Assembly (NCBI RefSeq): GCF_014203715.1
Contig: NZ_JACHJP010000005.1
Location: 248,001-312,000, forward strand
Direction of reading: 5' to 3'
Length of the DNA: 64,000 nt
From: Streptosporangium saharense
GTDB lineage: Bacteria; Actinomycetota; Actinomycetes; Streptosporangiales; Streptosporangiaceae
Each line of letters starts with the position of its first letter. Positions within the stretch are counted from its first letter, which is position 1. Below, piece after piece: positions 1 to 17,369 of the stretch. The translations under genes were made by a program, and so were the position numbers. A model generated the notes under the pieces. That model ran no database searches and was not told the origin of the DNA. It saw nothing but the letters and a program-made list of their open reading frames with translations.

Positions 1-2
1 GC

Positions 3-1142
3 TTCACCATCACCGCGGCCCTCGCCATCGGCGCCTACGTGACCAAGACCGACGTGGCCAGGGGATACGTGGTGCTCGCCCTGCCGCTGGCGACGCTGCT
101 GACCATCCTCGCGAGGTACGGCCTGCGCCGCCGACTGCACCGCAGACGCGCCCAGGGGGCCTGCATGCGCCGGGTCGTCGCGGTCGGCCACCGCGCCTCG
201 GTCACCGACCTGGTCCGCCGCTTCCGCAGGGAGCGCTACCACGGCATGGAGGTCGTCGGCGTCTGCGTGCCGTACGACGGGATGGGGGATGTCGAGGGCG
301 TTCCGGTGCTCGGGGGGCTGTCCGACGTCCCGATCGCCGTCCCCCAGGTCGCGGCCGACACGGTCGCGGTCCTGGCCTGTCCCGAGATGGACGGGGTGGC
401 GCTGCGGCGCCTGGCCTGGAGGCTTGAGCGCACCGAGACCGACCTGGTCGTCGCCCCGGCGCTGATGGAGGTCGCCGGGCCGAGGATCACGATCCGCCCC
501 GTGGCGGGGCTGCCGCTGCTGCACGTGGAACACCCGGAGCTGACCGGGCCGCGCCAGCTCGCCAAGAACCTCTTCGACCGGGTCGGCGCCGGGCTGCTGC
601 TCGTCGCGCTGCTGCCGTTGTTCGCCGTGCTGCCGGTGGCCGTACGCGCCTCGGGGCCTGGACCGGTGTTCTTCAGGCAGCGGCGGGTCGGCAGGGACGG
701 CGTCGAGTTCACGATCTACAAGTTCCGCACCATGACCACCGACGCGGAACGGCGGCGGGTCGAGCTGACCGGCGACGGGCAGAGCGTGCTCTTCAAGATC
801 CGCAACGACCCGCGCATCACCCCGGTCGGCGCCATGCTGCGGCGTCACTCCCTGGACGAGCTGCCGCAACTGGTCAACGTGCTGCTCGGCCAGATGTCGC
901 TGGTCGGTCCGAGACCGCCGCTTCCCGAGGAGGTCGCCCAGTACGGGGACGACGTCCGGCGCCGACTGTTGGTCAAGCCCGGCATGACCGGATTGTGGCA
1001 AGTCAGTGGGCGGTCTGACCTATCTTGGGAGGAATCTGTACGGTTGGACCTACGCTATGTGGAGAACTGGTCCCTCACCCTGGACCTGCAGATCCTGTGG
1101 AAGACCTGGTCGGCTGTCGCGCGAGGGGCTGGAGCATACTGA
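3..1142 (+). CDS. Polyprenyl-phosphate sugar-1-phosphate transferase (5' end outside window)
   Basis: Initiating enzyme of surface polysaccharide synthesis: it transfers a sugar-1-phosphate to undecaprenyl phosphate at the membrane. The reading frame is already open at base 3 (FTITAALAIGAYV...), so the gene starts upstream; the GTG at 39 is not the true start. The visible part has N-terminal membrane segments, then a Rossmann-like region (RRVVAVGHRAS), a membrane hairpin (GAGLLLVALLPLFAVLPV) and the full catalytic domain with FRQRRVGRDG, YKFRTM, KIRNDPRITPVG, DELPQLVNVL, SLVGPRPPLP and KPGMTGLWQVSGRS. That order is typical of the WbaP/WcaJ/CpsE family. It overlaps cysQ by one base (TGATG) and heads the rightward sulfation/glycan operon. 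The sugar cannot be told from sequence. Confidence 0.93.
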   Translation, partial: FTITAALAIGAYVTKTDVARGYVVLALPLATLLTILARYGLRRRLHRRRAQGACMRRVVAVGHRASVTDLVRRFRRERYHGMEVVGVCVPYDGMGDVEGVPVLGGLSDVPIAVPQVAADTVAVLACPEMDGVALRRLAWRLERTETDLVVAPALMEVAGPRITIRPVAGLPLLHVEHPELTGPRQLAKNLFDRVGAGLLLVALLPLFAVLPVAVRASGPGPVFFRQRRVGRDGVEFTIYKFRTMTTDAERRRVELTGDGQSVLFKIRNDPRITPVGAMLRRHSLDELPQLVNVLLGQMSLVGPRPPLPEEVAQYGDDVRRRLLVKPGMTGLWQVSGRSDLSWEESVRLDLRYVENWSLTLDLQILWKTWSAVARGAGAY

Positions 1143-1909
1143 TGACGATTCGCGACGACCACGTTCTCGCCGCGGACCTGGCGACGAGGGCGGGCGAGCT
1201 GCTGCTCGCCCTGCGCGAGAAGGTGGGCTTCGACGACCCGGCCGCGCTGCGCGCCGAAGGCGACTCCGCCTCACACCGCTTCCTGATGGACGCGCTGGCG
1301 ACCTCACGTCCAGGTGACAGTGTGCTGTCCGAGGAGGCGCCCCAGGACGAGCGTCTCGACCCCCGCCGTCTCACGGCGGAGCGGGTGTGGATCGTCGATC
1401 CGCTCGACGGCACCCGCGAGTTCGGCGAGGAGGGCCGCGACGACTGGGCGGTCCACGTGGCGCTGTGGGAGCACGGCGCGCTGGGCGCCGGGGCGGTCGC
1501 GCTGCCCGCCGCGGGTGTTACGCCGTCCACCCTTGAGCCTCCCGCCCTGCCGCAGCTCAGGACCGGCGCGCGGCCGAGGATCGCGGTCAGCAGGAGCAGG
1601 CCCCCCGAGTTCGTCGTCGAGCTGGCCGACCGCATCGGGGCCGAACTGGTGCCGATCGGCTCGGCGGGCGCCAAGATCTCCGCGGTCCTCACCGGCCGCG
1701 TCGAGGCCTACGTGCACGCGGGTGGCCAGTACGAGTGGGACTCCGCGGCCCCGGTCGCCGTCGCCCTCGCCTCGGGAGCCCACGCCAGCCGGATCGACGG
1801 CTCCCCCCTGACCTACAACCAGGGTGACCCGTTCCTGCCGGATATTCTTGTTTCCCTACCGGAACTGGCGCCGACCTTGCTCGCCGGAATCCGGGATCTC
1901 CACCGATAA
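1142..1909 (+). CDS. cysQ: 3'(2'),5'-bisphosphate nucleotidase CysQ (inositol monophosphatase family)
   Basis: Hydrolyses 3'-phosphoadenosine 5'-phosphate (PAP), the product left when a sulfotransferase has used PAPS, and so prevents product inhibition. The 255-residue product has the metal-binding motifs of the inositol monophosphatase superfamily: SEEAPQDERLD, WIVDPLDGTREF and the C-terminal WDSAAPVAVALASG. The ATG at 1142 overlaps the preceding stop as TGATG, so an upstream in-frame start at 1025 is rejected. Its place between a glycan-initiating transferase and the ATP sulfurylase genes, in a locus with three sulfotransferases, favours a role in PAPS-dependent sulfation. Members of this family can also act on inositol or fructose phosphates, which sequence alone does not exclude. 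Confidence 0.9.
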   Translation: MTIRDDHVLAADLATRAGELLLALREKVGFDDPAALRAEGDSASHRFLMDALATSRPGDSVLSEEAPQDERLDPRRLTAERVWIVDPLDGTREFGEEGRDDWAVHVALWEHGALGAGAVALPAAGVTPSTLEPPALPQLRTGARPRIAVSRSRPPEFVVELADRIGAELVPIGSAGAKISAVLTGRVEAYVHAGGQYEWDSAAPVAVALASGAHASRIDGSPLTYNQGDPFLPDILVSLPELAPTLLAGIRDLHR

Positions 1910-1928
1910 TCCCCGCTAGGAGAGTCAG

Positions 1929-2843
1929 ATGCTTCAGTGCGACTACACCACGTCGCAGCTCGATGTCCTTGAGGCAGAGGCCATTCACATCATGCGTGAG
2001 GTGGCGGCCGAGTTCGAGCGTCCCTGTCTGCTCTTCTCCGGTGGTAAAGACTCGATCGTCATGCTCCGCATCGCGGAGAAGGCCTTCTGGCCCGCGCCCA
2101 TCCCCTTCCCGCTGATGCACGTCGACACCGGGCACAACTTCCCCGAGGTGATCGAGTTCCGCGACCGCAGGGTGGCCGAGCTGGGCGCCCGCCTCGTCGT
2201 GGCCAGCGTGCAGGACTCCATCGACGCCGGGCGCGTCACCGAGGAGACGGGCCGCAGGGCCTCCCGCAACCGGCTGCAGACCACGACCCTGCTCGACGCG
2301 ATCGAGGACAACGAGTACGACGCCGTGTTCGGCGGGGCCCGCCGCGACGAGGAGAAGGCCCGCGCCAAGGAGCGCGTCTTCTCCTTCCGCGACGACTTCG
2401 GCCAGTGGGACCCGAAGAACCAGCGGCCCGAGCTGTGGAACCTCTACAACGGGCGCATCCGCAAGGGCGAGCACATCCGGGTGTTCCCGCTGTCCAACTG
2501 GACCGAGCTCGACGTCTGGGACTACATCCGGCGCGAGGGCATCGAGATCCCGTCGATCTACTACGCCCACCGGCGCAAGGTGTTCGAGCGCGACGGCATG
2601 CTGCTGTCCGACACCGAGTTCATCCTCCGCGACGAGGACGAGCCGCTCGTCGAGATGACGGTCCGCTACCGCACGGTCGGCGACGTGACCTGCACCGGCG
2701 CCGTCCAGTCGACCGCGGCCACGGTCGAGGAGATCATCGAGGAGATCGCGGTGACCCGGCTCACCGAGCGCGGCGCGACCCGCGCCGACGACCGGGCCTC
2801 CGAGGCGGCGATGGAGGACCGCAAGCGGGAGGGATACTTCTAG
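1929..2843 (+). CDS. cysD: Sulfate adenylyltransferase subunit 2 (ATP sulfurylase small subunit)
   Basis: Forms adenosine 5'-phosphosulfate (APS) from sulfate and ATP together with the GTPase CysN, in the cytosol. The 304-residue product has the N-type ATP pyrophosphatase loop (LLFSGGKDSIVML, about residues 35-47), MHVDTGHNFPEV, FGGARRDEEKARAKER and the C-terminal AVQSTAATVEEIIEEI segment, and its length fits the family. A good ribosome binding site (AGGAGAG) precedes the ATG 19 bases after cysQ. Its stop codon overlaps the GTG of a possible small reading frame that bridges to cysN. No sulfite or PAPS reductase genes accompany it, which suggests APS made here is destined for sulfation. Confidence 0.97.
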   Translation: MLQCDYTTSQLDVLEAEAIHIMREVAAEFERPCLLFSGGKDSIVMLRIAEKAFWPAPIPFPLMHVDTGHNFPEVIEFRDRRVAELGARLVVASVQDSIDAGRVTEETGRRASRNRLQTTTLLDAIEDNEYDAVFGGARRDEEKARAKERVFSFRDDFGQWDPKNQRPELWNLYNGRIRKGEHIRVFPLSNWTELDVWDYIRREGIEIPSIYYAHRRKVFERDGMLLSDTEFILRDEDEPLVEMTVRYRTVGDVTCTGAVQSTAATVEEIIEEIAVTRLTERGATRADDRASEAAMEDRKREGYF

Positions 2844-3040
2844 TGCGTGAGGTCCTGTCGCACCGGCCCGTCCCTCCCTGGGAGGGGACGCGCGTGAGCC
2901 TGGGGGCCTTCCCCAACGGCCGCGCCCTGTCTCACCTGCCGCTGCCCGCCGCCCCGGTGTGGGAACGGCCCCACCCGCTCGGCCCGCCCGCCGCGCGGCC
3001 TTCCCGTGCCAGCCGTACGACCTCTGGAGAGCAGCTCTGA
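2843..3040 (+). CDS. Possible 65-residue small protein bridging cysD and cysN
   Basis: A small open frame starts at a GTG that overlaps the cysD stop (TAGTG) and ends at a TGA that overlaps the cysN ATG (TGATG). A Shine-Dalgarno-like GGGAGGG lies about nine bases upstream. About 86% of its codons end in G or C, as in neighbouring genes. The product is rich in proline and arginine (for example RPVPPWEGTR and LPLPAAPVWERPHPLGPP), has no recognisable domain and no membrane segment. It also contains an imperfect hairpin near 2868-2892 around a CCCTGGGA core. It may be a real translationally coupled protein, or an untranslated spacer whose frame is open by chance. I do not recognise it. Confidence 0.35.
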   Translation: MREVLSHRPVPPWEGTRVSLGAFPNGRALSHLPLPAAPVWERPHPLGPPAARPSRASRTTSGEQL

Positions 3041-4302
3041 TGGACATCCTTCGCTTTGCCACCGCGGGAAGCGTCGACGACGGGAAGTCGACCCTCATCG
3101 GCCGCCTGCTCTTCGACTCGAAGGCGATCTTCGAGGACCAGCTTGAGGCCGTCGAGCGCACCTCCCGCGACCGCGGCACCGAGTACACCGACCTGTCGCT
3201 GCTCACCGACGGCCTGCGGGCCGAGCGGGAGCAGGGCATCACGATCGACGTGGCCTACCGCTACTTCGCCACGCCCAAGCGCAAGTTCATCATCGCCGAC
3301 ACCCCGGGCCACATCCAGTACACCAGGAACATGGTCACCGGCGCCTCGACCGCCGACCTGGCGATCATCCTGATCGACGCGCGCAAGGGCGTGATCGAGC
3401 AGTCGCGGCGGCACGCCTTCCTGACGACGCTGCTGCGGGTGCCGCACCTGGTGCTCGCGGTCAACAAGATGGACCTGGTCGACTACTCCCAGGAGCGGTT
3501 CGAGGAGATCCGTGAGGAGTTCACGGCCTTCGCCTCCAAGCTGAACGCCCCGGACCTCACGTTCATCCCGATCTCGGCGCTGCACGGCGACAACGTGGTC
3601 TCCCGCTCGGAGAACATGCCGTGGTACAACGGCTCCTCGCTGCTGCACCACCTGGAGCACCTGCACATCGCCTCCGACCGCAACCTGGTGGACGTGCGCT
3701 TCCCGGTGCAGTACGTGATCAGGCCGCAGCGGGCGACCGACCCGGCCTTCCACGACTACCGCGGTTACGCGGGCCAGGTCGCGGGCGGGGTGCTCAAGCC
3801 GGGCGACGAGGTCATGCACCTGCCCTCCGGGCTGACCACGCGCATCGCCTCGATCGACACCTTCGGCGGTCCCGTCGAGGAGGCCTTCCCGCCCATGTCG
3901 GTGACCCTCCGCCTTGAGGACGACATCGACATCTCCCGGGGCGACATGATCTGCCGCCCGAACAACCAGCCGCACGCCGCCCAGGAGCTTGAGGCGATGG
4001 TCTGCTGGATGACCGACGCGAGCAAGCTGGGCCCGCGCACCAAGCTGACCATCAAGCAGACGACCCGTACGGCCCGCGCCCTGGTCCGCGACCTGCACTA
4101 CCGGATCGACGTCAACACGCTGCACCGCGACGAATCGGCCCAGAGCCTCGGCCTGAACGAGATCGGCCGGGTCTCGCTGCGCGTCACCCAGCCGCTGTTC
4201 GTGGACGACTACGCGAGGAACCGCCTCACCGGCGGGTTCATCCTCATCGACGAGACGACCAGCAACACCGTCGGCGCCGGGATGATCGTCGAGGCCCGCT
4301 GA
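3040..4302 (+). CDS. cysN: Sulfate adenylyltransferase subunit 1 (GTPase subunit)
   Basis: GTP-driven regulatory subunit of ATP sulfurylase; it couples GTP hydrolysis to APS formation by CysD. The 420-residue product begins MDILRFATAGSVDDGKST, which contains the P-loop, followed by EREQGITIDVAYRYF, DTPGH, NKMD and translation-factor-like beta-barrel domains to the C terminus. There is no fused APS kinase domain after the barrels; that activity is supplied by the separate cysC gene on the other strand. The ATG at 3040 is preceded by GGAGAG, and upstream in-frame starts would add residues that are not family-like. A strong hairpin follows at 4315-4357. Confidence 0.96.
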   Translation: MDILRFATAGSVDDGKSTLIGRLLFDSKAIFEDQLEAVERTSRDRGTEYTDLSLLTDGLRAEREQGITIDVAYRYFATPKRKFIIADTPGHIQYTRNMVTGASTADLAIILIDARKGVIEQSRRHAFLTTLLRVPHLVLAVNKMDLVDYSQERFEEIREEFTAFASKLNAPDLTFIPISALHGDNVVSRSENMPWYNGSSLLHHLEHLHIASDRNLVDVRFPVQYVIRPQRATDPAFHDYRGYAGQVAGGVLKPGDEVMHLPSGLTTRIASIDTFGGPVEEAFPPMSVTLRLEDDIDISRGDMICRPNNQPHAAQELEAMVCWMTDASKLGPRTKLTIKQTTRTARALVRDLHYRIDVNTLHRDESAQSLGLNEIGRVSLRVTQPLFVDDYARNRLTGGFILIDETTSNTVGAGMIVEAR

Positions 4303-4314
4303 CACCTTCTCTCT

Positions 4315-4357
4315 GGTCCCCTTCACCGCCCGCCGTACGCGGGTGGGGGAGGGGACC
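4315..4357 (+). terminator. Hairpin terminator after cysN
   Basis: GGTCCCC at 4315-4321 pairs with GGGGACC at 4351-4357, and CACCGCCCGC pairs with GCGGGTG inside it. The result is a long GC-rich stem directly after cysN. There is no long U-tract, which is common in high-GC actinomycetes. Confidence 0.6.
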
Positions 4358-4458
4358 TTCGCGTTGCGGGGACCGGTAGATCGTTTTCCCGTTCCGCGAC
4401 CCCCATGTGACTCTCCGCGCTAGTCTCGGCACGTTCCGTATCCGGCCGGTGAGGATTC

Positions 4459-5424
4459 GTGCCCGTGTCTGACAGTCCGTCCCCCGCCAGGGTCGTCTTC
4501 CTTGGTGGTCTCGGCCGCAGCGGCACCACGTTGCTCGAACGCCTGCTCGGCGAGGTCCCCGGCATCGTCCCGCTCGGCGAGGTCGCCCACCTCTGGTCGC
4601 GCGGCGTGCTCGCGAACGAGAACTGCGGGTGCGAGCAGCCGTTCGGCACCTGCCCGTTCTGGCGCGAGGTCGGCGCGCGGGCTTTCGGCGGTTGGTCGCG
4701 GGAGCTCGCCGGAAGGGTCGTCACGCTCGGGCGGCGGGTCGACCGCACCCGGCACATCCCCGCCCTCGCCCAGCTCATGGCCGACGGCAGGACGGGCGCC
4801 CCCTGCTGGCCGTCGCGCAGGACCGCCGCCCTGGGGGAGTACGCCGCGGCCCACCGCCGTCTCTACGACGCGGCCGGTGAGATCGCCGACTGTCCGGTCG
4901 TCGTCGATTCGAGCAAGCACGCCTCCCTGGCCTTCTGCCTGGCCGCCGCGGGGGTGGACGTGCACGTCGTGCACGTCGTGCGCGACCCCAGGGCCGTCGC
5001 CCACTCCTGGCACAGGCGGGTCGTCCGCCCGGAGAACGGCTCCCCGATGACCCGCTGGTCACCGGCCCGCACCTCGGTGCACTGGCTGGCCCAGAACCTC
5101 GGCATCGAGCTCCTGGCCCGTGGCGGCGTGCCCGTCACCAGGGTCCGCTACGAGGACCTCGTCCGGGCTCCGGCGGACACGCTCAGGCACCTGACCGGCA
5201 GGATCGGCCTGCCCGCCCGCCTCGACTTCCTGACCGGCGGCGAGGCCCTGCTCTCCAGGGCGCACACGGTCGCGGGCAACCCGGTGCGCTTCACGGTCGG
5301 CCCGCTCGGGCTGGTCCCCGACGAGGCCTGGCGCACCTCGGCCCCGGTCCTGCACCGCCGCCTGGTCACCGCGCTGACCTGGCCACTGATGATCAAGTAC
5401 GGCTATCGCGGGAGGCTCGTGTGA
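4459..5424 (+). CDS. PAPS-dependent sulfotransferase (first of three)
   Basis: Probably transfers the sulfuryl group of PAPS to a hydroxyl of a glycan or glycolipid. The 321-residue product has a 5'-phosphosulfate binding loop near the N terminus (FLGGLGRSGTTLLERLL) and a 3'-phosphate binding motif (VVHVVRDPRAVAHSW). CGCEQPFGTCPFW, typical of one bacterial sulfotransferase subgroup, lies between them. The GTG at 4459 is preceded by GTGAGG. The gene follows the cysN terminator but overlaps the next glycosyltransferase (GTGA), so it belongs with the glycan genes. Substrate unknown; a trehalose/Stf0-type or other lipid-sulfating role cannot be excluded. Confidence 0.85.
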   Translation: MPVSDSPSPARVVFLGGLGRSGTTLLERLLGEVPGIVPLGEVAHLWSRGVLANENCGCEQPFGTCPFWREVGARAFGGWSRELAGRVVTLGRRVDRTRHIPALAQLMADGRTGAPCWPSRRTAALGEYAAAHRRLYDAAGEIADCPVVVDSSKHASLAFCLAAAGVDVHVVHVVRDPRAVAHSWHRRVVRPENGSPMTRWSPARTSVHWLAQNLGIELLARGGVPVTRVRYEDLVRAPADTLRHLTGRIGLPARLDFLTGGEALLSRAHTVAGNPVRFTVGPLGLVPDEAWRTSAPVLHRRLVTALTWPLMIKYGYRGRLV

Positions 5425-6332
5425 GACCGTCGGTGGGAGTGGTCATCCCCACGAGAGGCCACAGACCGGAGCACCTGCGCGCCGCCACGCGCGCCGCCCT
5501 CGGCCAGACATACTCCGGCGAGGTCGAGGTTGTCGTCGTCGCGGACGGCACGGGGAGCGCGCGGGTCACCGACCAGCTCGCCGACCTCCTCGTCCCCGGG
5601 GCACGGAGCGTCCGGGTCGTGCCCAACCGGCGCCTGCCCGGCCTTCCCGGGGCGCGCAACACCGGCATCGAGGCACTCGGCACCGACCTGGTCGCCTTCT
5701 GCGACGACGACGACCAGTGGGCGCCGGGCAAACTCGCCGCCCAGGTCGGGGCGCTCACGGCGCGGCCGGACGCGGAGTTCGCCAGCTGCGCCATCGAGGT
5801 CGAGTACGGCTCCCGCCGCGTTCCGCGCCTCGCGGGGACTTCCACGGTCACCCGGGCCCACCTGCTGCGCTCGCGGATGGCGATGGTGCACTCCTCGACC
5901 TTCCTGTTCAGGCGGGGCGCGTTCCTGGTGGACGAGAGCGCGCCGAACGGCCAGAACGAAGACTGGGACCTGGCGCTGCGCGCCGCCACGTGCCGTCCCA
6001 TCGCGCACGTGGACCGTCCACTGGTACGCGTCCGATGGGGCGCCTCGCTGTACGCGACCCGGTGGGCGGACCGCATAGCCGGGCTTGAGTGGATGCTCGC
6101 CCGGCACCCCGATCTGGCCGTGGACCCGCGCGGCGCGGCACGGGTCTACGGCCAGATCGCCTTCCACAACGCGGCCCTCGGCCGTCGCAGGGAGGCGGGC
6201 CGCTGGGCGCTTCGGGCCCTCGCCGTACGGCGTGGCGAGCCCCGGGCGCCCATCGCGCTGGCCGTGGCGGCCGGTCTGGTCTCGGCCCACACGGTGCTGG
6301 ACGTGCTGCACCACCGCGGGCACGGCATCTGA
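5421..6332 (+). CDS. Family 2 glycosyltransferase
   Basis: Nucleotide-sugar-dependent transferase that likely adds a sugar to the lipid-linked repeat unit on the inner face of the membrane. The 303-residue product shows the GT-A fold signatures SVGVVIPTRGHRPEHL at the N terminus, LPGLPGARNTGIEALGTDLVAFCDDDDQW (with a DDDD metal-binding run) and NGQNEDWDLALRA. Its start GTG overlaps the sulfotransferase stop (GTGA) and its stop overlaps the next ATG (TGATG), so all three genes are translationally coupled. No transmembrane segment is evident. Donor and acceptor are not predictable. Confidence 0.88.
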   Translation: MRPSVGVVIPTRGHRPEHLRAATRAALGQTYSGEVEVVVVADGTGSARVTDQLADLLVPGARSVRVVPNRRLPGLPGARNTGIEALGTDLVAFCDDDDQWAPGKLAAQVGALTARPDAEFASCAIEVEYGSRRVPRLAGTSTVTRAHLLRSRMAMVHSSTFLFRRGAFLVDESAPNGQNEDWDLALRAATCRPIAHVDRPLVRVRWGASLYATRWADRIAGLEWMLARHPDLAVDPRGAARVYGQIAFHNAALGRRREAGRWALRALAVRRGEPRAPIALAVAAGLVSAHTVLDVLHHRGHGI

Positions 6333-7174
6333 TGGCGACCGGTACGGCCAGGACCCAGGGCAGGCGGCGTCGTGACAAGACCCTGGACAGGGCGCGGGAC
6401 GAGGCGGCCCGTAAGCGCCGCAGGGTGCGGGTCGCGGGGCTCGTCCTCGACCCGATGAGCGAGGGCGAGGTCGTCGATCACGTGATCGCCTCGCTGAAGT
6501 GCGGTGAGGGCGGCCACCTGGTGACCCCCAACGTGGACATCGGCTGGGCCGTCGCCCGCGACCCCGAGGCGCGTGAGCTGGTCGAGAATGCCGATCTGGC
6601 GGTCGCGGACGGTATGCCGCTGGTGTGGGCGGCCGATCTGCTCGGCACGCCGGTTCCCGGCAGGGTCACCGGCGCCGACCTGATCTGGTCCCTGTCCGAG
6701 GCGGCGGCCTTCTACCGCTACCCGGTCTATCTGCTCGGTGGCCCGCAGGGCGCGGCCAGGCAGGCGGCGGCCCGGCTGCTCGAACGCCACCCCCGCCTGG
6801 ACGTCGTGGGGGCCGACGCCCCGCCGCCCGGGTTCGAGACGACCGAGGAGGGCTACGCGAAGGTCAAGGAGGACCTGCTGGCCGCCGCGCCCCGGGTGGT
6901 CTTCGTGGGCCTCGGCTTCCCCAAGCAGGACCGGCTCATCGCGCGGCTCCGCCAGGACATGCCCGCGACCTGGTTCGTCGGCTGCGGCGCGGCGATAGCC
7001 TTCGCGGCGGGTACGGCCCGCAGGGCGCCGATGTGGATGCGGCGCTCCGGGCTCGAATGGCTCTTCCGGCTGATCAACGAGCCCGGCAGGCTGGCCCGCC
7101 GCTATCTCCTGCACGACCTGCCGTTCGCGCTCAAGCTGCTCACGGTCTGTCTGCTGCGGCGGCTCTTCTCCTAG
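6332..7174 (+). CDS. WecG/TagA/CpsF family glycosyltransferase
   Basis: Members of this family (GT26) transfer N-acetylmannosamine, N-acetylmannosaminuronate or related sugars to an undecaprenyl-linked acceptor. The 280-residue product has VRVAGLVLDPMSEGEVVDHV, GGHLVTPNVDI, DLAVADGMPLVWAADLLG, RVTGADL, YLLGGPQGAA, GLGFPKQD, CGAAIAFAAGT and RAPMWMRRSGLEWLFRLINEP, which runs through the family signature from end to end. The ATG at 6332 overlaps the upstream stop. It ends tail to tail with the leftward operon: both stops lie in one CTAG at 7171-7174, so there is no spacer between the convergent genes. Confidence 0.93.
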   Translation: MATGTARTQGRRRRDKTLDRARDEAARKRRRVRVAGLVLDPMSEGEVVDHVIASLKCGEGGHLVTPNVDIGWAVARDPEARELVENADLAVADGMPLVWAADLLGTPVPGRVTGADLIWSLSEAAAFYRYPVYLLGGPQGAARQAAARLLERHPRLDVVGADAPPPGFETTEEGYAKVKEDLLAAAPRVVFVGLGFPKQDRLIARLRQDMPATWFVGCGAAIAFAAGTARRAPMWMRRSGLEWLFRLINEPGRLARRYLLHDLPFALKLLTVCLLRRLFS

Positions 7175-9389: not shown

Positions 9390-9404
9390 GGTGCCCCCAC
9401 GCGG

Positions 9405-10262: not shown

Positions 10263-11182
10263 GACAGGAGCTCCTGGAAGTCGACGACGGGGTTGAGCCA
10301 GCGCTCCGGCGGCCCGAGGGGGGCGTGGCCGTCGGCCGCGTGCCGGTCGGCGAGCGCGATCAGGTAGCGGATCACGGTCAGCCTGGCCTCGGCGGAGGAG
10401 AGCCCGAAGAGGGCCAATGTCGGCAGGGCCTGGGACAGGCACGCCCTGGCGGCCGTCGCCGGGTCGTTGCGGCGCAGGAGGCGGTGGAAGAGGTGGTGGA
10501 CGGCGTCGAAACCGAGCGGGACCCCGGTGCCGAACCGCTCCCAGTCCCACACCAGCAGCCTGCCGTCCGCGGCGCGGGCGATGTTCCACGGGGAGAGGTC
10601 GCCGTGCCAGGAGAAGTCCTGTCCCGGGGGGACGGGCAGGTGGGCGATCTCGGTGACGGCCTCGACGAGGAGGCGGCCGGGGACGGGCAGTGCGCGGGGG
10701 CCACGCCGTACGGGAAGGGGGGAGAGGGCGAGCACCGACAGGCCGCGCCAGGTTCCGTGGTGGAGCACGGTCGGCGCGACGACGGTCTTCAGCGGCGTGT
10801 CGGCGAGCATGGCGAGCGTGCGCGCCTCGTGCGTGACGAGGTCGCGGACCCTGGCCGTGTCGCCGATCTTCACGAAGGCGGCGAGCCCGTCCCGGGTGTG
10901 GGCTTCGAGGATCGGCTTGCGGTTGGCGCGTACGGCGGGGCGGACGTGCAGCACGACCCGGACCGGGGCGCCCAGCGCCTGACCGAGGTAGGTCTCGATG
11001 GTGTCGTGCCCCGAGGGCACCAGCACCCTCCTGCCCGGGTGCCACCACGCGCGGGGCGCCAGCCTGCGGGGTAGCGTGCGGTGGGGGAGCAGGCTGTAGG
11101 GGCGGGGCTCGCCGTCGGTGGTGGGGAACAGCAGACCGACGGTCCTGCTGAGGTAGCGCAGCCGGACGCGGGCGTCGTTCAT
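10259..11182 (-). CDS. APH-fold phosphotransferase in the polysaccharide operon
   Basis: Member of the aminoglycoside/choline kinase superfamily, 307 residues. The catalytic loop and metal site are visible as FSWHGDLSPWNIARAADGRLLVWDWERFG, and AFVKIGDTARVRDLVTHEARTL resembles the nucleotide-binding lobe. The ATG overlaps the upstream ligase-like stop (ATGA) and its own stop overlaps the next sulfotransferase start (GTGA), so it is locked into the glycan operon. An antibiotic-resistance role is therefore unlikely. Kinases of this fold phosphorylate sugars, choline or glycerol-like groups, so it may phosphorylate a sugar precursor or decorate the polymer. The substrate is not predictable. Confidence 0.75.
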   Translation of the reverse strand: MNDARVRLRYLSRTVGLLFPTTDGEPRPYSLLPHRTLPRRLAPRAWWHPGRRVLVPSGHDTIETYLGQALGAPVRVVLHVRPAVRANRKPILEAHTRDGLAAFVKIGDTARVRDLVTHEARTLAMLADTPLKTVVAPTVLHHGTWRGLSVLALSPLPVRRGPRALPVPGRLLVEAVTEIAHLPVPPGQDFSWHGDLSPWNIARAADGRLLVWDWERFGTGVPLGFDAVHHLFHRLLRRNDPATAARACLSQALPTLALFGLSSAEARLTVIRYLIALADRHAADGHAPLGPPERWLNPVVDFQELLS

Positions 11183-12474
11183 ACGGCGGTCCCCCTCGCC
11201 ATCGAGTTCCTCCAGAGCAGCGCGAACGAGATGAGATACAGGCTGAGCGGCGTGACCAGCCCGTCGTAGACGAACATGTAGAGCAGGGTCAGGATCATCA
11301 CCAGCACCCCGGCCAGGCCGACGGGGCTGCGGTCCGACCAGTGGCGGCGGATCGCCCCGGCGAAGAACGCCACGTAGAGCCCGGCCCCGACGAACCCCTG
11401 GGTGATCATCAGGTGCCAGAGCTGGCCGTCGCTGCCCAGCGGCGGGTGGCCGCACTCCCCGCACCAGTCGGTCCTGCCGGTGGTGATCGTGCGGTGGTTG
11501 CCCGTGGCGTTCCTGGTGTTGCCGTAGCCGATGATCGGCGAGGTGCGCGCGGCGGCGACGGTCGCCGAGACGGTGAAGGCGCGGATGTCGTTGCTGTGCG
11601 GGTTGTCCAGCCGGGCGGCGACCATCGTGCGCAACGGGCTCAGGAGCAGCAGCAACGCCCCGGCGGCGATGGCGGAGCAGGCCATGATGCGGGTCCGCGC
11701 GCCAAGGCGCAGCAGCAGGTAGCCCGCCGCGACCCCGAGGCCGATCCACAGGCCCCGGTTCAGGGAGTAGACGACGGGGACGGCGCAGAGCGCGAGCAGC
11801 GGGGCCACGGCCAGGCGCCTGCGCGGCCCGCCGTACGTCCACCAGCCGACCACGAACCAGACCAGCAGCACCGAGACGTTGCTTCCCCAGGCGTTGGCCC
11901 ACTCGAAGGGAGCCTCCGGCCGGGGGGAGGCGTGGCCGAGGACCTTCTGCACCTGGGCCGCGGTCGGGTGGATCAGGTTGTGCACGTAGGGGTTGTCGGC
12001 GATCCAGCCGGGCAGCAGCATCTCCACCGGCGAGGTGAGGTCGGCGCCGGGGGCGAACACCCCGAGTAGGCCGCCCGCCACGGTCGTGACGAACAGGGCG
12101 CCGAGCATGCGCACCAGCGTGAGCTGCGGAAGCTCCCGCTCGGTCAGGTTGCCCAGGTAGAGGACCATGATCAGAAGCGAGACGTACAGGGCGAGGCGCA
12201 TCAGGTAGCCGAGCACCCGCCCGAGCCCGAGATCGCCGTAGGTCCCCGGCGGCATCTCCCCCAGCATGAGCGCGCTGACGAGGTAACCGGCGAGCAGCAT
12301 CAGCCAGAGGCCGAACCCCTTGGGAACTTTGATCGGCCTTCGCCGCCACAGCACCGCCGCCATCACCGGGGCCAGCACGACGATCGACAGGCCGCCGAAG
12401 CCGAGCGCCCACCAGACGGGGTAACCGACGAGCAGCGCGGCGATCGGCCAGGCCGCCCGGTCCAGCCCTCTCAC
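11179..12474 (-). CDS. O-antigen ligase/polymerase-like membrane protein
   Basis: A 431-residue integral membrane protein with about 11 hydrophobic segments and one large extracytoplasmic loop (residues from about 300 on, containing ARLDNPHSNDIRAFTVSATVAAARTSP, GYGNTRNATGNH and CGECG). The fold and loop position match the Wzy_C/O-antigen ligase superfamily, which polymerises or transfers lipid-linked glycans outside the membrane. NRGLWIGLG is a common motif of these proteins. The GTG start overlaps the stop of the Wzz-like gene (GTGA), and its stop overlaps the kinase-like ATG. Polymerase and ligase functions cannot be separated by sequence alone. Confidence 0.82.
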   Translation of the reverse strand: MRGLDRAAWPIAALLVGYPVWWALGFGGLSIVVLAPVMAAVLWRRRPIKVPKGFGLWLMLLAGYLVSALMLGEMPPGTYGDLGLGRVLGYLMRLALYVSLLIMVLYLGNLTERELPQLTLVRMLGALFVTTVAGGLLGVFAPGADLTSPVEMLLPGWIADNPYVHNLIHPTAAQVQKVLGHASPRPEAPFEWANAWGSNVSVLLVWFVVGWWTYGGPRRRLAVAPLLALCAVPVVYSLNRGLWIGLGVAAGYLLLRLGARTRIMACSAIAAGALLLLLSPLRTMVAARLDNPHSNDIRAFTVSATVAAARTSPIIGYGNTRNATGNHRTITTGRTDWCGECGHPPLGSDGQLWHLMITQGFVGAGLYVAFFAGAIRRHWSDRSPVGLAGVLVMILTLLYMFVYDGLVTPLSLYLISFALLWRNSMARGTAV

Positions 12475-13730
12475 GGGGGGAAGGCCGTCTCGGTCGGGGA
12501 GAGCGTCCTGATCGGCACGGTCGGCACAGAGGCCCCGGCGACCCATTTACCCGGCTCTTTGCCGGGTTCTCTGCCTGGCTCTCTGCTCGGTTTCTCGGGG
12601 GTACGGCTGGCGGGGACGTCCGCGGAGTGGTTCACCGGGAAGGACGGGGGGCGGCCGCCGTTGGGGGGCTCCTCGCGCCGGGGAGTGGTGCCGTACGCCT
12701 TGCGTGTCTCCTGCGGGGTCTTCTGGGGGTTGTCGGTGGGAGAGGTGAGCAGGCCGCCGACGACCGGCATGCCCTGGCGCGCGAGGCGCTGCACGGCCCT
12801 GGCCATCCCGCGTGGGGAGGTCTTCGCCACGCTGACCAGCAGCATCGCGCCCTCCCTTCCCGCGAGCCGTTCGATCTCCTCGGGGCGTGCCCGCAGGACG
12901 GCGCCGTCGAGGCCGGTCACGGGGGTGTCCTGTCTGGTGGGGCGGTCGCGTAACCAGGCGAGGCCGACCCCGGCGAGGAGTCCGGCCATCAGGCCGCTGC
13001 CGAGGTAGAGGGGCGGGCTGGGCTGGCTGGCCGAGGTCGGGGGGACGGCCTCGCTGATCACGGTGCCGGGGGTCACGGCCACGGTCCGCAGCGCGTCGTA
13101 CTTCACGGTGAGGTTGTAGACCTGGCGGCCGAGGACGTTCTGCCGCTGCGCGGCCAGGGTGTGCTCCGCCGTACCCTTGCCGAGGCTTGGCAGGGAGGCG
13201 ACGACGGCGGACAGGCTGGCGTTGACCTGTCTCAGCTTGGTCATGAGGGCCTTGAGCTGGGCGTCCAGTGCCCGGGCCGCGCTCTCGCGCCGGTTGTCGA
13301 GGTAGGCCCTGGCGTAGGCGCTCGCCCCCGCGGCGGCGGCGGCCGGGTCCGAGGCGGTGTAGGAGACGCGCAGGACCGAGGTGTTCGGGGGCACGGAGAC
13401 CTCGACCGGCCCGGGGACGCCGCCGAGCGTGTGCCCGGCCTTCCCGGCGACCACGGCCGACTGGGCGACCTGGGCCTCGGTGTCGAGGTTGAGCGCCTCG
13501 CGCTGCCGGTTGGTGACCTGGTTCGTCTGCTCCTGCAGGCCCGTGGGGGTGACCAGCACCTCGGCGGAGGCGGTGTAGGAGGCGGGGATCACGCGCAGCA
13601 GCACGGCGCCGGAGCCGACGCCACCGGCGAGCAGGAACAGGATGGTCGGCCAGCGGCGGCGGAGGAAGGAGATGTAGTCCGTCAGGTCTCCGCCGGGGCG
13701 GCGGACCGAGGCGTCCGGCGGAGGGCTCAT
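12471..13730 (-). CDS. Wzz-like chain-length/polysaccharide co-polymerase with long cytoplasmic tail
   Basis: A 419-residue protein with the N-terminal Wzz topology. Membrane segment 1 is at about residues 26-48 (TILFLLAGGVGSGAVLLRVIP) and is followed by SYTASAEVLVTPTG. A long extracytoplasmic region comes next, and segment 2 is LYLGSGLMAGLLAGVGLAWLRDR. Behind it lies a region resembling the shell of a BY-kinase (EEIERLAGREGAMLLVSVAKTSPRG...MPVVGGLLTSP) but without Walker A or B motifs or a tyrosine cluster. The end is a proline-rich tail with EPGREPGKEPGK repeats. The ATG at 13730 follows AAGGA. It is the first gene of the leftward operon. Confidence 0.82.
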   Translation of the reverse strand: MSPPPDASVRRPGGDLTDYISFLRRRWPTILFLLAGGVGSGAVLLRVIPASYTASAEVLVTPTGLQEQTNQVTNRQREALNLDTEAQVAQSAVVAGKAGHTLGGVPGPVEVSVPPNTSVLRVSYTASDPAAAAAGASAYARAYLDNRRESAARALDAQLKALMTKLRQVNASLSAVVASLPSLGKGTAEHTLAAQRQNVLGRQVYNLTVKYDALRTVAVTPGTVISEAVPPTSASQPSPPLYLGSGLMAGLLAGVGLAWLRDRPTRQDTPVTGLDGAVLRARPEEIERLAGREGAMLLVSVAKTSPRGMARAVQRLARQGMPVVGGLLTSPTDNPQKTPQETRKAYGTTPRREEPPNGGRPPSFPVNHSADVPASRTPEKPSREPGREPGKEPGKWVAGASVPTVPIRTLSPTETAFPP

Positions 13731-14039
13731 ACGTTTCGAGTCCTTTTCGAGGGGATTTGATATGGGGGGTCGGTGATTCCGAACCCTAGGAACTATAGGT
13801 CCGCCTGCTGTTTCCTCGATCCGATACACAAGATTTTTGTCGTGGTCGCCGCTATGGCGGCATGAAAATAAACACCATTTATCGGATATTTCCTCACGAT
13901 TGCCATGGGGGTCCGGCGCCGGGGCGCCGAAGCCCATGACATGGCACGTCCGCGCGATGGCAGGCTTGGGGCGTGCCCGCGCTCGCGGGACCGGAAACCG
14001 GGAAAGCGGAATGTTCGTGAGGAAACGGAGTGTGCAACT
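13731..14039. promoter_or_regulatory. Divergent promoter region between the Wzz-like and GH26-like genes
   Basis: This 309-base spacer separates two divergent transcription units and is clearly more AT-rich than its surroundings, especially 13780-13900 (for example CACAAGATTTTTGTCG and ATGAAAATAAACACC). It must contain promoters for both the six-gene leftward operon and the rightward GH26-like gene. Short open frames in it lack ribosome binding sites and coding bias. I cannot assign exact -10/-35 boxes with confidence. Confidence 0.5.
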
Positions 14040-15134
14040 GTGTGTTTACGTGATGCCACCAAGCGGCTTTTCTCGCGGAGAGTGTTAGTCGCCGTTTCGG
14101 GTTTGTCGCTGGTCCTCGGAACCGGGGCGTGCGGCCCTTCCGAGGGCGTTTCCCACAAACAACCAGAAAGCACCCCGAAACCAGCTAAGGCGAACCCGGC
14201 CGCCTGCGCGGTCAACGCCAAGCTCGTCCCCGCCTGCGGGGTCTGGTGGGGAATCGCGCCCGAGGTCTTCACCGGCAGGCCCCCGCAGCGGGCGCTCGCC
14301 CGCGCCGAGCGGCGCATGGGCCGCCGCGCCGACGTCGTGCACCTCTACCACCGGGGCGCCGAGCTGTTCCCGACCTCCCAGGAGCGCCGGATCGCCCGCG
14401 ACCCAGGGGGCCGCAGGATCCTGCTGGTCAACTGGAAGCCGTCCTTCGACCACACCTGGGCGCAGATCGCCGACGGCGCCCTCGACGACCGCATCGACCG
14501 GCTGGCCGAGCACATCACCGCGACCTTCCCCGAGCGGTTCTTCCTCACCGTCCACCACGAACCGGAGAACGACGTACGGCAGAGCCCCGGCTCCGGCATG
14601 ACCGCCGAGGACTACGCAGCGATGTTCCGGCACGTGGTGCTGCGGCTACGGCGTGACGGCGTGCGCAACGCGGTCACGGTCATGACCTACATGGGCGCGC
14701 CCAACTGGGGGGCCAACCCCTGGTTCGAGCGGCTCTACCCGGGTGACGACGTGGTGGACTGGGTGGCGATGGACCCCTACGCCGACGAGCGGGTGCAGAC
14801 CTTCGGCGACCTGGTCGACAGGACCCGTGAGGAGTTCGCCCGCTGGCCGGGGACCTACCGGTGGATGAACGCGCACCTGCCGGGCAAGCCCGTCATGGTC
14901 GCCGAGTGGGGCGCGTTCGAACGGCCCGGTGACCCGGCTTTCAAGGAGAGGTTCTTCGCCACCGCGCGGCGGCAACTGCGTGACTACCCCCGGATCAGGG
15001 CGCTGGTCTACTTCGACTCACCGCACGCCCCGAGGGGGGACACCCGCTTCGACACCACTCCCGGCGCCCTGCACGCCTTCTCCGGCCTCGCCCGCGACCC
15101 CGGCCTGCGCGCCCCCGCGGTTCCGCAGCAGTGA
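14040..15134 (+). CDS. GH26-like (beta-mannanase-type) glycoside hydrolase lipoprotein
   Basis: Predicted exported glycosidase of 364 residues. From the GTG at 14040 (GGAG ten bases upstream) the product has a basic n-region, a hydrophobic stretch (VLVAVSGLSLVLG) and a cysteine at 31 in GTGAC that could be lipid-modified, although the lipobox is not perfect. The mature part is a TIM-barrel type: HHEPEN carries the likely acid/base Glu174 and VAEWGAFE the likely nucleophile Glu289, spaced as in GH26. A glycan lyase or hydrolase is common in polysaccharide loci, where it trims or releases polymer. The gene contains two UUA leucine codons (codons 3 and 16). Its last 117 bases overlap the convergent permease gene. 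Confidence 0.75.
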   Translation: MCLRDATKRLFSRRVLVAVSGLSLVLGTGACGPSEGVSHKQPESTPKPAKANPAACAVNAKLVPACGVWWGIAPEVFTGRPPQRALARAERRMGRRADVVHLYHRGAELFPTSQERRIARDPGGRRILLVNWKPSFDHTWAQIADGALDDRIDRLAEHITATFPERFFLTVHHEPENDVRQSPGSGMTAEDYAAMFRHVVLRLRRDGVRNAVTVMTYMGAPNWGANPWFERLYPGDDVVDWVAMDPYADERVQTFGDLVDRTREEFARWPGTYRWMNAHLPGKPVMVAEWGAFERPGDPAFKERFFATARRQLRDYPRIRALVYFDSPHAPRGDTRFDTTPGALHAFSGLARDPGLRAPAVPQQ

Positions 15135-15977
15135 CCAGGCCACGGCGCCCGCGACGGCCATCCCGCCCACGGCCCACATCAGGGCCGTGTTGCCGACGCC
15201 GAGGAGCTTCAGCGCCGAGGCGAGCAGCACGACCGCCAGCAGCGCGCGGATGACGCCGCCCGGCGCCCAGGCGGAGATCCTGGCGCCGATGTAGACGCCG
15301 GGGATCGAGCCGACCAGCAGGGAGGTGGTGATGGATAACTGGAAGTCGCCGAACAGCAGGTGCCCGAGGGCGGCGGAGGCGACCAGCGGCACGGCCTGGA
15401 CCAGGTCGGTGCCGACGAGCTGGTTGGCCTTGAGGGCCGGATACAGCGCGAGCAGCGCCACGATGATCAGCGATCCCGAGCCGACCGACGAGATGCCGAC
15501 GACGAGGCCCCCGATCATACCGACCAGTAAGGTCGGAATAGGGTGCACGACAATGGACGACAGGTCCGCCGAGGCCTTCCCCCGGCCGTCGTCACGCGAC
15601 ATCCACGCCTTGGCGACCAGACCGACGACCGCCAGCAGCAGGGCGACCCCCAGCGCGTACTTGACGACCTCCTGGACCCGCTCGCCGTCCCCGAAGGCCC
15701 TGGCGGCGAAGACCCCGCAGAAGGCCGCGGGGACCGAGCCCGCGCACAGCCAGGCGACCAGGCGCAGGTTCACCGTTCCGCGCCGCATGTGGACGACCCC
15801 GCCGATCGGCTTCATGACGGCGGAGGCGACCAGGTCGCTGGAGACGGCCGCCAGGGGAGGCACGTTGAAGAACAGCAGCATCATCGGCGTCATCAGCGCG
15901 CCGCCGCCCATGCCGGTCAGCCCGACGATGATCGCGACGAGGAAGGATCCGGCTGCGAGGGGGATGTCGATGGCCAT
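15018..15977 (-). CDS. TauE/SafE (TSUP) family sulfur-anion permease
   Basis: A 319-residue membrane protein with about eight hydrophobic segments and the duplicated TSUP architecture: LVAIIVGLTGMGGGALMTPMMLLFFNVPP in the first half and IGGLVVGISSVGSGSLIIVALLALYPALKANQLVGTDL in the second. Members export or import sulfite, sulfoacetate, sulfolactate or thiosulfate. It lies 84 bases downstream of the APS kinase gene on the same strand, so it may supply or relieve sulfur anions in the sulfation pathway. The last 38 residues are a low-complexity Gly/Ala/Val tail encoded antisense to the end of the GH26-like gene. The functional part probably ends near the last helix. Confidence 0.85.
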   Translation of the reverse strand: MAIDIPLAAGSFLVAIIVGLTGMGGGALMTPMMLLFFNVPPLAAVSSDLVASAVMKPIGGVVHMRRGTVNLRLVAWLCAGSVPAAFCGVFAARAFGDGERVQEVVKYALGVALLLAVVGLVAKAWMSRDDGRGKASADLSSIVVHPIPTLLVGMIGGLVVGISSVGSGSLIIVALLALYPALKANQLVGTDLVQAVPLVASAALGHLLFGDFQLSITTSLLVGSIPGVYIGARISAWAPGGVIRALLAVVLLASALKLLGVGNTALMWAVGGMAVAGAVAWSLLRNRGGAQAGVAGEAGEGVQGAGSGVEAGVPPRGVR

Positions 15978-16061
15978 CGGTCGTTCACCATTTCTCGGTC
16001 ACTGTGCGGTGGGCGGCGCGGGGCCGCCCGTTACGGGGGCCCGGCGCCCCGGGCCCCGTGG

Positions 16062-17291
16062 TCAACGGATCCACCCTCCCTGGATCAGCGGGTCGAGCAC
16101 CTGCCGTACGGCCTGGTCGACGCTGACCGAGGTGGTGTCGAGGACCAGGTCGGCGTCCTCCGGCTCCTCGTACGGGTCGGAGATCCCGGTGAACTCGGGA
16201 ATGAGACCCGCGCGGGCCTTGGCGTAGAGCCCCTTGCGGTCGCGGCGCTCGCACTCCTCAAGCGGGGTGGCCACGTGGACCAGCAGGAAGTCGGCGCCGA
16301 CCGCCTCGACCATCTCCCTGACCTCGGCGCGGGTGGCGGCGTAGGGCGCGATGGGCGCGCAGATCGCCAGCCCGCCGTGCCTGGCCGTCTCGGCGGCGAC
16401 GAACCCGATCCTGCGGATGTTCAGGTCGCGGTCCTGCCTGGAGAAGGTCAGCCCCGCCGACAGCAGCCGCCTGACCACGTCGCCGTCGAGATAGGTGACC
16501 GTACGGCCGCCGCGTTCGAGCAGCGCGTCCCGCAGCCCCCTGGCCACCGTGGACTTCCCGGAACCGGACAGGCCGGTGAAGAAGACCACCAGGCCGCGCC
16601 GGTGCGGCGGGCCCGGCAGCGTCACCGGCTCGGGACCCGCCAGGTGTTCGGTCGCGCCGTACGCCTCGGCGACGCGCTCGCGCAGCTCCAGGTCGATGCT
16701 GGGCTCGTCCCCGCGGGCCAGGGGCACGACGGCAAGGAGGGTGTCCCCGCCGAGCCTCTCGCGTGCCTTCAGCGCCGCGCGGACCACCGCGGGACCGTCC
16801 TCGCCGAACGCCAGCGGAAGCAGCAGCACCACGGCCCCCAGCTCCCTGGCGGTCGCCTCGACCTCGCCGAGGTCGTCGAGCGGGCCGCGCATGGTGACCG
16901 CGAGCGCGGGCCGCTCACCCAGCTCCTTGCGGATCTCCGCCGGGGTGAGGCGCAGCCTGGCGAACGGGCCGTGCTCGGGGGCGTCGAGCCCCTCGACCGG
17001 GCCGGCGACGAGGCCGTCCTGACGGTCGGTGACGGTGAGCACGGCCAGTGCGGCGCCCTCGGGGTCACGCAGGGTGATCCGGTCGCCGGGGGCGGCCGGA
17101 TGGTCCTCGGGCAGCGCGAGCGTGACCGGCGAGGGCCAGCGGGTGCCGTCGGACAGGACGCCGTGCTCGCCGACGGCGTGCGCGTCGGCCGAGCTCATGA
17201 AGCCCGTCAGCGGCTGGAAGGCACCCGAGAGCAGCAGCTCCAGGTCGGCCAGCTCATGGGCGTCGGGGGTCCACTCGAAAGGGGCCGTCAT
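16062..17291 (-). CDS. cysC: APS kinase with degenerate ATP-sulfurylase-like N-terminal domain
   Basis: Phosphorylates APS at the 3' position to give PAPS, the donor for sulfotransferases. In the 409-residue product the C-terminal kinase domain is intact: P-loop GLSGSGKS (240-247), YLDGDVVRRLLSAGLTFSRQDR (267 on), NIRRIGFVAAE, ICAPIAPYAATR and GLYAKARAG. Residues 1 to about 225 resemble ATP sulfurylase (LLSGAFQPLTGFM). However, they are too short and lack the QxRNPxHxxH catalytic motif, so sulfurylase activity is unlikely; CysDN supplies it. The ATG at 17291 has GGAG five bases upstream and is preferred to a TTG 21 bases earlier. Confidence 0.93.
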   Translation of the reverse strand: MTAPFEWTPDAHELADLELLLSGAFQPLTGFMSSADAHAVGEHGVLSDGTRWPSPVTLALPEDHPAAPGDRITLRDPEGAALAVLTVTDRQDGLVAGPVEGLDAPEHGPFARLRLTPAEIRKELGERPALAVTMRGPLDDLGEVEATARELGAVVLLLPLAFGEDGPAVVRAALKARERLGGDTLLAVVPLARGDEPSIDLELRERVAEAYGATEHLAGPEPVTLPGPPHRRGLVVFFTGLSGSGKSTVARGLRDALLERGGRTVTYLDGDVVRRLLSAGLTFSRQDRDLNIRRIGFVAAETARHGGLAICAPIAPYAATRAEVREMVEAVGADFLLVHVATPLEECERRDRKGLYAKARAGLIPEFTGISDPYEEPEDADLVLDTTSVSVDQAVRQVLDPLIQGGWIR

Positions 17292-17369
17292 CTGCTCCAC
17301 AATCCCGATCAACTTAGTCGGATTTCATCACCTTACCTACTCCAGTTGTCCCACACCAACCCCCGCGAC

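Follow-up and report, generated by a model that had tools for sequence, protein, structure and literature searches.

The 64,000-nucleotide stretch of the Streptosporangium saharense genome examined here (the window, C5:248001-312000 of an 8.5-Mb genome) has a polysaccharide locus of the Wzx/Wzy type between pth and mfd, interleaved with sulfate activation genes and three sulfotransferases (ST1, ST2, and ST3), and this raises the question of what is being sulfated. Among bacteria, sulfated polysaccharides have been ascribed chiefly to cyanobacteria and a small number of marine species. Judged from its sequence, the locus is very likely the Streptosporangium version of wps-1, a gene cluster of Actinoplanes missouriensis, and would use the Wzx/Wzy route to produce a polysaccharide of the cell surface or matrix that carries sulfate. 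The support for this reading consists of the gene content, the conserved linkage, the conserved motifs, the single CysD and single adenosine 5'-phosphosulfate (APS) kinase found in the genome, and the orthology to wps-1. A sulfated surface polysaccharide was also what the original prediction had proposed, and the conserved linkage, intact motifs, and orthology support that part of it well.

Every gene named in the original prediction was found by profile searches: the sugar transferases, Wzx, Wzy, Wzz, a GH26-like protein, the three sulfotransferases, cysD, cysN, cysC, cysQ, and a TauE permease, as seen in Table 1. With an initiating sugar-phosphate transferase (PGT), glycosyltransferases (GTs), Wzx, Wzy, and Wzz all present, the locus has the parts of a Wzx/Wzy-dependent system. 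The Wzy-type protein has 7 hydrophobic segments and conserved relatives, despite a Wzy_C score under the Pfam cut-off. Three features had not been listed before: a kinase, a methyltransferase, and the start of PGT, which is predicted to lie ~304 bases ahead of the first window position.

The window sulfotransferases matched PF13469 with E-values of 1.5e-13, 4.4e-12, and 6.6e-11. The P-loop and 3'-phosphate motif columns were conserved in the alignments of ST3 (22 sequences), ST1 (18), and ST2 (13), with an invariant R-x-G and following T and an invariant R-D with a downstream S (the D is nearly invariant in ST2). We take these motifs to be the 5'-phosphosulfate P-loop and the 3'-phosphate binding site. 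By these alignments, all three proteins carry the motifs of sulfotransferases that depend on 3'-phosphoadenosine 5'-phosphosulfate (PAPS). One borderline transmembrane segment was predicted in ST1 and none in ST2 or ST3. Without clear membrane helices in these proteins, sulfation should be cytoplasmic, ahead of export by Wzx.

The kinase has an aminoglycoside phosphotransferase (APH) fold. Residues K105, E119, HGD193-195, N200, and D213 were invariant across 30 sequences and are presumably the usual kinase catalytic residues. Its model had a pLDDT of 90, and the Foldseek matches were APH-type with APH(3')-IIa as the best, but the matches were weak (TM-scores below 0.5 among the 50 matches listed) and, therefore, no substrate was inferred. 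WbdD (4azw), which we take to be the O9a kinase-methyltransferase chain terminator, was among the matches at rank 28, and the locus itself has a methyltransferase at its end, whose membership in the pathway is uncertain. The conserved kinase, the methyltransferase, and the structural match to WbdD would fit a polysaccharide modified mainly by phosphorylation or methylation, with sulfotransferase-like proteins that are inactive or use another donor. We regard this as highly improbable given the conserved P-loop and 3'-phosphate columns in three separate alignments and the linkage of the PAPS genes.

A related gene cluster has been studied by deletion. Tezuka and Ohnishi (June 2026; PMC13390465) deleted each wps-1 gene and three neighboring genes in A. 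missouriensis and, in the part of their report available to us, predict the product to be a sulfated polysaccharide, with verification awaited. The original prediction had described this kind of product as possibly uncharacterized, which no longer applies. For comparison with the window, genome G743, taken as A. missouriensis from map position and gene order, was annotated with profiles built from the Streptosporangium family. Its gene order was GT2, ST, GT26, open reading frame (ORF), GH26, ORF, Wzx, ST, kinase, Wzy, Wzz, and cysC, which is the published wps-1 order, with the WpsD and WpsF positions as unannotated ORFs. GT2, ST1, GT26, Wzx, ST3, the kinase, Wzy, Wzz, and GH26 are found together in the window, and these genes and cysC are common to wps-1 (AMIS_7280-7380) with AMIS_7390. 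By sequence comparison, the window locus is orthologous to A. missouriensis wps-1. Unlike wps-1, it sits between pth and mfd and has PGT, cysD, cysN, cysQ, and TauE as well as a third sulfotransferase; its annotation shows no equivalent of WpsD (DUF4262).

In the available text on A. missouriensis, wps-1 is needed for normal sporangia, a requirement known for that species only, and deletions of wpsH and of wzx/wzy gave a common squashed-sporangium phenotype (PMC13390465). Deletion of AMIS_7390 "unexpectedly" led to severe sporangium defects with macroscopically unchanged plates; the authors assign the protein to the family of sulfate adenylyltransferases and APS kinases and emphasize the formation of APS (PMC13390465). 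In G743, the APS kinase match was unique and located at 790776-791237, inside AMIS_7390. Because this was the sole APS kinase found in G743, the deletion phenotype can be explained if AMIS_7390 forms PAPS, as its sequence suggests: its loss would remove the donor for both sulfotransferases.

The GH26-like protein of the window has a lipobox-like N-terminus and the GH26 fold, with CtLic26 as the best Foldseek match (E 3.9e-22). E176 and E291, presumably the GH26 catalytic glutamate pair, were invariant in 26 sequences. The protein scored 17.5 against a Pfam cut-off of 20.2, and the fold and the glutamate pair support its family; the A. missouriensis relative adjoining AMIS_7390 scored 28.7, over the cut-off. 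The best G743 match of the window protein was the gene after AMIS_7390 (341 bits), compared to 138 bits for the WpsE position. This gene, on the plus strand directly beyond AMIS_7390 (L104:2393-3718), is thus a second GH26-like gene of G743, and it goes unmentioned in the available text on wps-1 (PMC13390465).

The locus was conserved in relatives of the same order, where a Wzx match was found in 200 of 249 genomes. Content and mostly order were kept beside pth in Streptosporangium, Planobispora, Nonomuraea, and Microtetraspora loci. Among genera further away (L055-L072), rearrangements affected GT2 and wzz, among others, and wecG and ST2 were unmatched. The content was also conserved for the faster genes, at protein identities down to 26-60%. 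By profile (score threshold of 100 bits, with two pieces of G016 merged before counting), 56 of 78 family loci carried wzx or wzy, and all 56 of them had a sulfotransferase, cysQ, cysD, and cysN. The original prediction had proposed a check for homologous loci lacking sulfotransferases or cys genes, and none was seen in this group. All three sulfotransferases were present in 36 of the 53 loci with both wzx and ST3, while 9 had ST1 and ST3 and 8 had ST3 only. The 20-kb stretches often stop short of cysC and mfd, and only 9 of the 56 were complete from pth to mfd; cysC was present in 9/9 of these and tauE in 7/9. Among the 22 family loci without a wzx/wzy match, 19 had no sulfotransferase by profile, and cysQDN was kept in the pth stretch in all 22. 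The split of 56 and 22 is not random, since most family loci were picked among wzx-positive genomes and 20 were picked for having no listed wzx match. Negative for wzx/wzy here means no match to our own profiles; L193 has a different Wzy_C protein, and the Pfam check did not take in L056, L194, and L195. A chance neighborhood was ruled out by the gene content and linkage conserved across families.

Across the class, ST3 was matched in 67 of 394 genomes at E<=1e-60 (a hand count, with a cut that was set after viewing the results and may take in paralogues) and in 95 at 1e-30. Of the 67 genomes at the stricter cut, 66 had an APS kinase match, compared to 232 of the 327 others; the one without it, G379, is 86% complete. 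ST3 occurred with the kinase and wzy in 23 of 27 annotated outgroup loci. The exceptions were L085 (6.6 kb, cut by the contig), L099 and L100 (the two loci of G338, both without a kinase match), and L102, a deliberately weak match. L106, a further fetched stretch of 1 kb, was left out of the annotation. In f39, the family containing G743, ST3 matched in 228 of 250 genomes, a figure that overstates the locus because many g115 genomes match only at ~1e-75 to 1e-84, the range of L099 and L100, and may hold paralogues. The locus again adjoins pth in L094 and L169, and mfd too in L094. Outgroup stretches also carried cys genes: cysD and cysQ in Blastococcus (L169), cysC in L109, L111, and L112 (f39), cysC and tauE in L097, and cysQ in L091. 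Among the best 80 of 255 relatives, each locus taken with at most 10 kb on either side, matches were found to ST3 in 80, the kinase in 80, wzy in 79, wzz in 78, GH26 in 73, wzx in 72, wecG in 70, ST1 in 66, GT2 in 66, cysC in 62, ST2 in 55, cysN in 48, and cysD in 47. A role in sporangia only was not adopted because the locus extends to Nonomuraea, Actinomadura, Glycomyces, and Geodermatophilaceae, and many members of these groups are not regarded as forming sporangia.

The original prediction had also described a dedicated, closed PAPS cycle, which did not hold up in searches of the whole genome. A PF01507 search of the window genome gave two strong matches, the window CysD and a CysH on C3, and three weak matches (E ~1e-8 to 1e-10) to other family members. 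No second CysD and no PF01747 ATP sulfurylase were found in the genome, and the window CysC was its sole APS kinase found. A dedicated second sulfate-activation set was rejected on these results, although CysN was not searched separately. The predicted absence of PAPS and sulfite reductases was confirmed for the locus, while CysH and sir are located elsewhere in the genome. CysH is grouped with sir and cbiX, with no cysDNC among the neighbors examined, and carries a CC..CxxC motif, which we take to be the iron-sulfur signature of APS reductases. With a CysH of this type, cysteine synthesis should not need PAPS. Because CysD was the only copy found and a PF01747 sulfurylase was not detected in the genome, CysDN is very probably shared and also feeds cysteine synthesis via the distant CysH. 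CysC is probably needed for sulfation only, not for cysteine synthesis, and other sulfotransferases encoded in the genome may draw on its PAPS as well.

Window CysC aligns to bifunctional sulfurylase/APS kinases over a PUA-like N-terminus and the kinase domain. We rejected it as a bifunctional enzyme because it has no PF01747 match and does not retain the QTRN...HRAH stretch of 1i2d, presumably the ATP-sulfurylase active-site motif, in the alignment. For AMIS_7390, the corresponding reading is weaker: it appears, from its sequence, to have lost this active site, with QTRN replaced in its alignment to 1i2d, but a PF01747 match above the cut-off remains, and 3cr8 deviates from the motif there too.

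CysD and CysC being the only copies found, together with the retention of cysQDN in every one of the 22 family loci that had no wzx/wzy match, would be expected if the cys genes served housekeeping sulfate assimilation and lay beside an unrelated polysaccharide cluster by chance. This is quite unlikely, since CysC makes PAPS, which the APS-reductase-type CysH should not need. In Micromonosporaceae, moreover, cysC adjoins wps-1-type loci with no cysD or cysN seen in the stretch read. The AMIS_7390 deletion also harms sporangia while leaving the plates, whose media may supply cysteine, macroscopically the same (PMC13390465). The housekeeping explanation does apply in part, to cysDN, which is probably shared.

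Several observations weigh against a sulfated Wzx/Wzy polysaccharide or against parts of that account. In the A. missouriensis report, as far as available, sporangia of the wpsB (ST1) deletion looked normal, though released spores were about tenfold fewer, and AMIS_7390 was not activated with wps-1 on day 3, which argues against tight coupling (PMC13390465). AMIS_7390 has a PF01747 match over the cut-off (44.4 vs 24.3 bits), and its loss of sulfurylase activity rests on the motif reading. At the ST3 cut of 1e-30, 89 of 95 genomes had an APS kinase match (those without were G262, G305, G328, G370, G379, and G453). The genome counts are not phylogenetically independent, and Fisher values, which disregard relatedness, were not taken as evidence. 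PF13469 sulfotransferases occurred elsewhere in 23 of 23 genomes searched and, therefore, PAPS has other users. In L193 (G113), polysaccharide genes of another kind follow the PGT-cysQDN block, and no sulfotransferase was found among them, so the glycan part appears exchangeable. The kinase was kept in 12 of the 22 loci without a wzx/wzy match. Two of these loci, L199 (G052) and L203 (G018), retain ST3 and the kinase beside cysQDN, between cysN and mfd; there, the pair may have another substrate and a function of its own. L054, the third locus of this group with a sulfotransferase, keeps ST1, ST3, the kinase, and GH26.

Lipids and small molecules are known substrates of other bacterial sulfotransferases. 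It could be, then, that the sulfotransferases here, or at any rate ST3 together with the kinase, act on a lipid, small molecule, cell-wall polymer, or protein, with the Wzx/Wzy glycan itself left unsulfated. L199 and L203 point this way, as do loci with the kinase and neither ST3 nor wzx/wzy, such as L208 (G067), where the kinase alone was matched between cysN and mfd. However, a sulfotransferase was present in all 56 wzx/wzy-positive family loci, ST3 occurred with wzx, the kinase, and wzy in distant families, and the wpsH and wzx/wzy deletions had their phenotype in common (PMC13390465). We, therefore, consider another acceptor unlikely and a sulfated Wzx/Wzy glycan the better explanation.

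Some further observations were made on these gene families. L193 has RmlA/B/D-like genes and its different Wzy_C protein at 6233-14607, after the PGT-cysQDN block. Two adjacent PF13469/PF00685 sulfotransferases lie elsewhere in the window genome (C1:1114642-1116284, L008). The genome searches with PF13469 and PF00685 missed window ST1, so such searches overlook some sulfotransferases. In G144, two places, C11:14735-19739 (L077) and C5:457037-460747 (L078), each combine cysD and cysN with an APS kinase and a PF13469 sulfotransferase, and no glycan genes were matched in the pth-mfd stretch of this genome.

The plus-strand series of the window locus runs PGT, cysQ, cysD, cysN, ST1, GT2, wecG, and the convergent minus-strand series runs wzz, wzy, kinase, ST3, wzx, ST2. 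Beyond wzz lie the GH26-like lipoprotein gene on the plus strand and then cysC, tauE, and the methyltransferase gene on the minus strand. The upstream flank has glmU-, prs-, rplY-, and pth-like genes, and the downstream flank has mfd, a SurA-like gene, and mazG. The original prediction had sulfotransferase and glycan genes joined by 4-base overlaps in both operons. Such overlaps were found for ST1/GT2, kinase/wzy, and wzy/wzz, but ST2-wzx, wzx-ST3, and ST3-kinase are separated by gaps of 14, 15, and 20 bases. The sole 4-base overlap of ST2 is with wecG, tail to tail over the common CTAG at window:7171-7174, where the convergent series overlap. The CysQ-like protein scored 101.9 bits against TIGR01331, under the family cut-off of 228.8. 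The TauE/SafE permease is likely a carrier of a sulfur compound.

Table 1. Genes of the polysaccharide and sulfation locus, with window positions
Feature	Position	Strand	Evidence and remarks
PGT, initiating polyprenyl-phosphate sugar-phosphate transferase	1..1142	+	Bac_transf 1.7e-67 and CoA_binding_3 (below cut-off); 481 aa
cysQ-like 3'-phosphoadenosine 5'-phosphate (PAP) phosphatase	1142..1909	+	Inositol_P family, 1.5e-28
cysD, ATP sulfurylase small subunit	1929..2843	+	TIGR02039, 5.7e-138
cysN, ATP sulfurylase GTPase subunit	2959..4302	+	TIGR02034, 1.2e-172
ST1, sulfotransferase	4459..5424	+	PF13469; corresponds to WpsB position
GT2 glycosyltransferase	5421..6332	+	Corresponds to WpsA position
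WecG/TagA/CpsF (GT26) glycosyltransferase	6332..7174	+	Corresponds to WpsC position
ST2, sulfotransferase	7171..8079	-	PF13469; none seen in the A. missouriensis stretch read
Wzx-type flippase	8094..9389	-	Corresponds to WpsG position
ST3, sulfotransferase	9405..10238	-	Corresponds to WpsH position
APH-fold kinase	10259..11182	-	Presumed usual kinase catalytic residues; corresponds to WpsI position
Wzy-type polymerase	11179..12474	-	Wzy_C 9.5e-06 (below Pfam cut-off); corresponds to WpsJ position
Wzz-type chain-length protein	12471..13730	-	Corresponds to WpsK position
GH26-like lipoprotein	14034..15134 (start approximate)	+	GH26 0.0029, below cut-off
TauE/SafE permease, putative	15018..15977	-	TauE profile match
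cysC, ATP-sulfurylase-like PUA remnant fused to APS kinase	16062..17300	-	APS kinase 5.6e-56; corresponds to AMIS_7390
SAM-dependent methyltransferase	17370..18098	-	Often adjoins cysC

A pathway can be proposed from these genes. CysDN would convert sulfate to APS, and CysC would phosphorylate APS to PAPS. PGT would begin a short repeat on a polyprenyl carrier, which GT26 and GT2 would lengthen. The simplest repeat would have three sugars, one each from PGT, GT26, and GT2, because PGT is inside the locus; for wps-1, the authors propose a two-sugar repeat from the transferases in that cluster (PMC13390465). ST1, ST2, and ST3 would sulfate the repeat in the cytoplasm, and the APH-fold kinase may phosphorylate it. 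Wzx would then flip the repeat, Wzy and Wzz would polymerize it, and the GH26-like lipoprotein would trim or remodel the polymer, while CysQ would clear PAP. We infer the glycan as sulfate acceptor, the size of the repeat, the roles of the kinase and the GH26-like protein, and a role in the spore or sporangium matrix.

Two other systems are similar by description. The xss cluster of Synechocystis 6803 is likewise of the Wzx/Wzy type and encodes two sulfotransferases from separate subfamilies, and its product, synechan, was chemically shown to be sulfated; it differs in being a cyanobacterial plasmid cluster with eight glycosyltransferases, and the available text of the synechan paper contains neither "PAPS" nor "cysH" (PMC8205485). 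The capsule cluster of Cobetia marina KMM 1449 has cysN/C, cysD, cysQ, a sulfate permease, and sulfotransferases in one cluster and a sulfated product of reported structure, as described in the part of the report available, but it is an ABC-transporter capsule system of ~70 genes from another phylum (PMC11766843).

If the locus acts as it appears to, a sulfated polysaccharide would be common in soil actinomycetes and tied to the spore or sporangium matrix. This offers a simple explanation for the surprising sporangium defect of the published AMIS_7390 mutant, which would have lost the sole PAPS source found in its genome, and sulfation can be tested with the existing A. missouriensis mutants. 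We suggest more tentatively, as a possibility that is still somewhat doubtful, that a sulfated matrix polysaccharide is an old and widespread trait of Actinomycetes. In many of them, the APS kinase would then serve mainly to provide PAPS for sulfation and not for cysteine, and in Streptosporangiaceae the sole sulfate-activation genes would have been built into the glycan locus, with one APS pool for matrix sulfation and assimilation. If true, the matrices of sporangia and spores would be glycans that carry sulfate, and possibly phosphate too, and are chemically analogous to the matrices of animals and algae.

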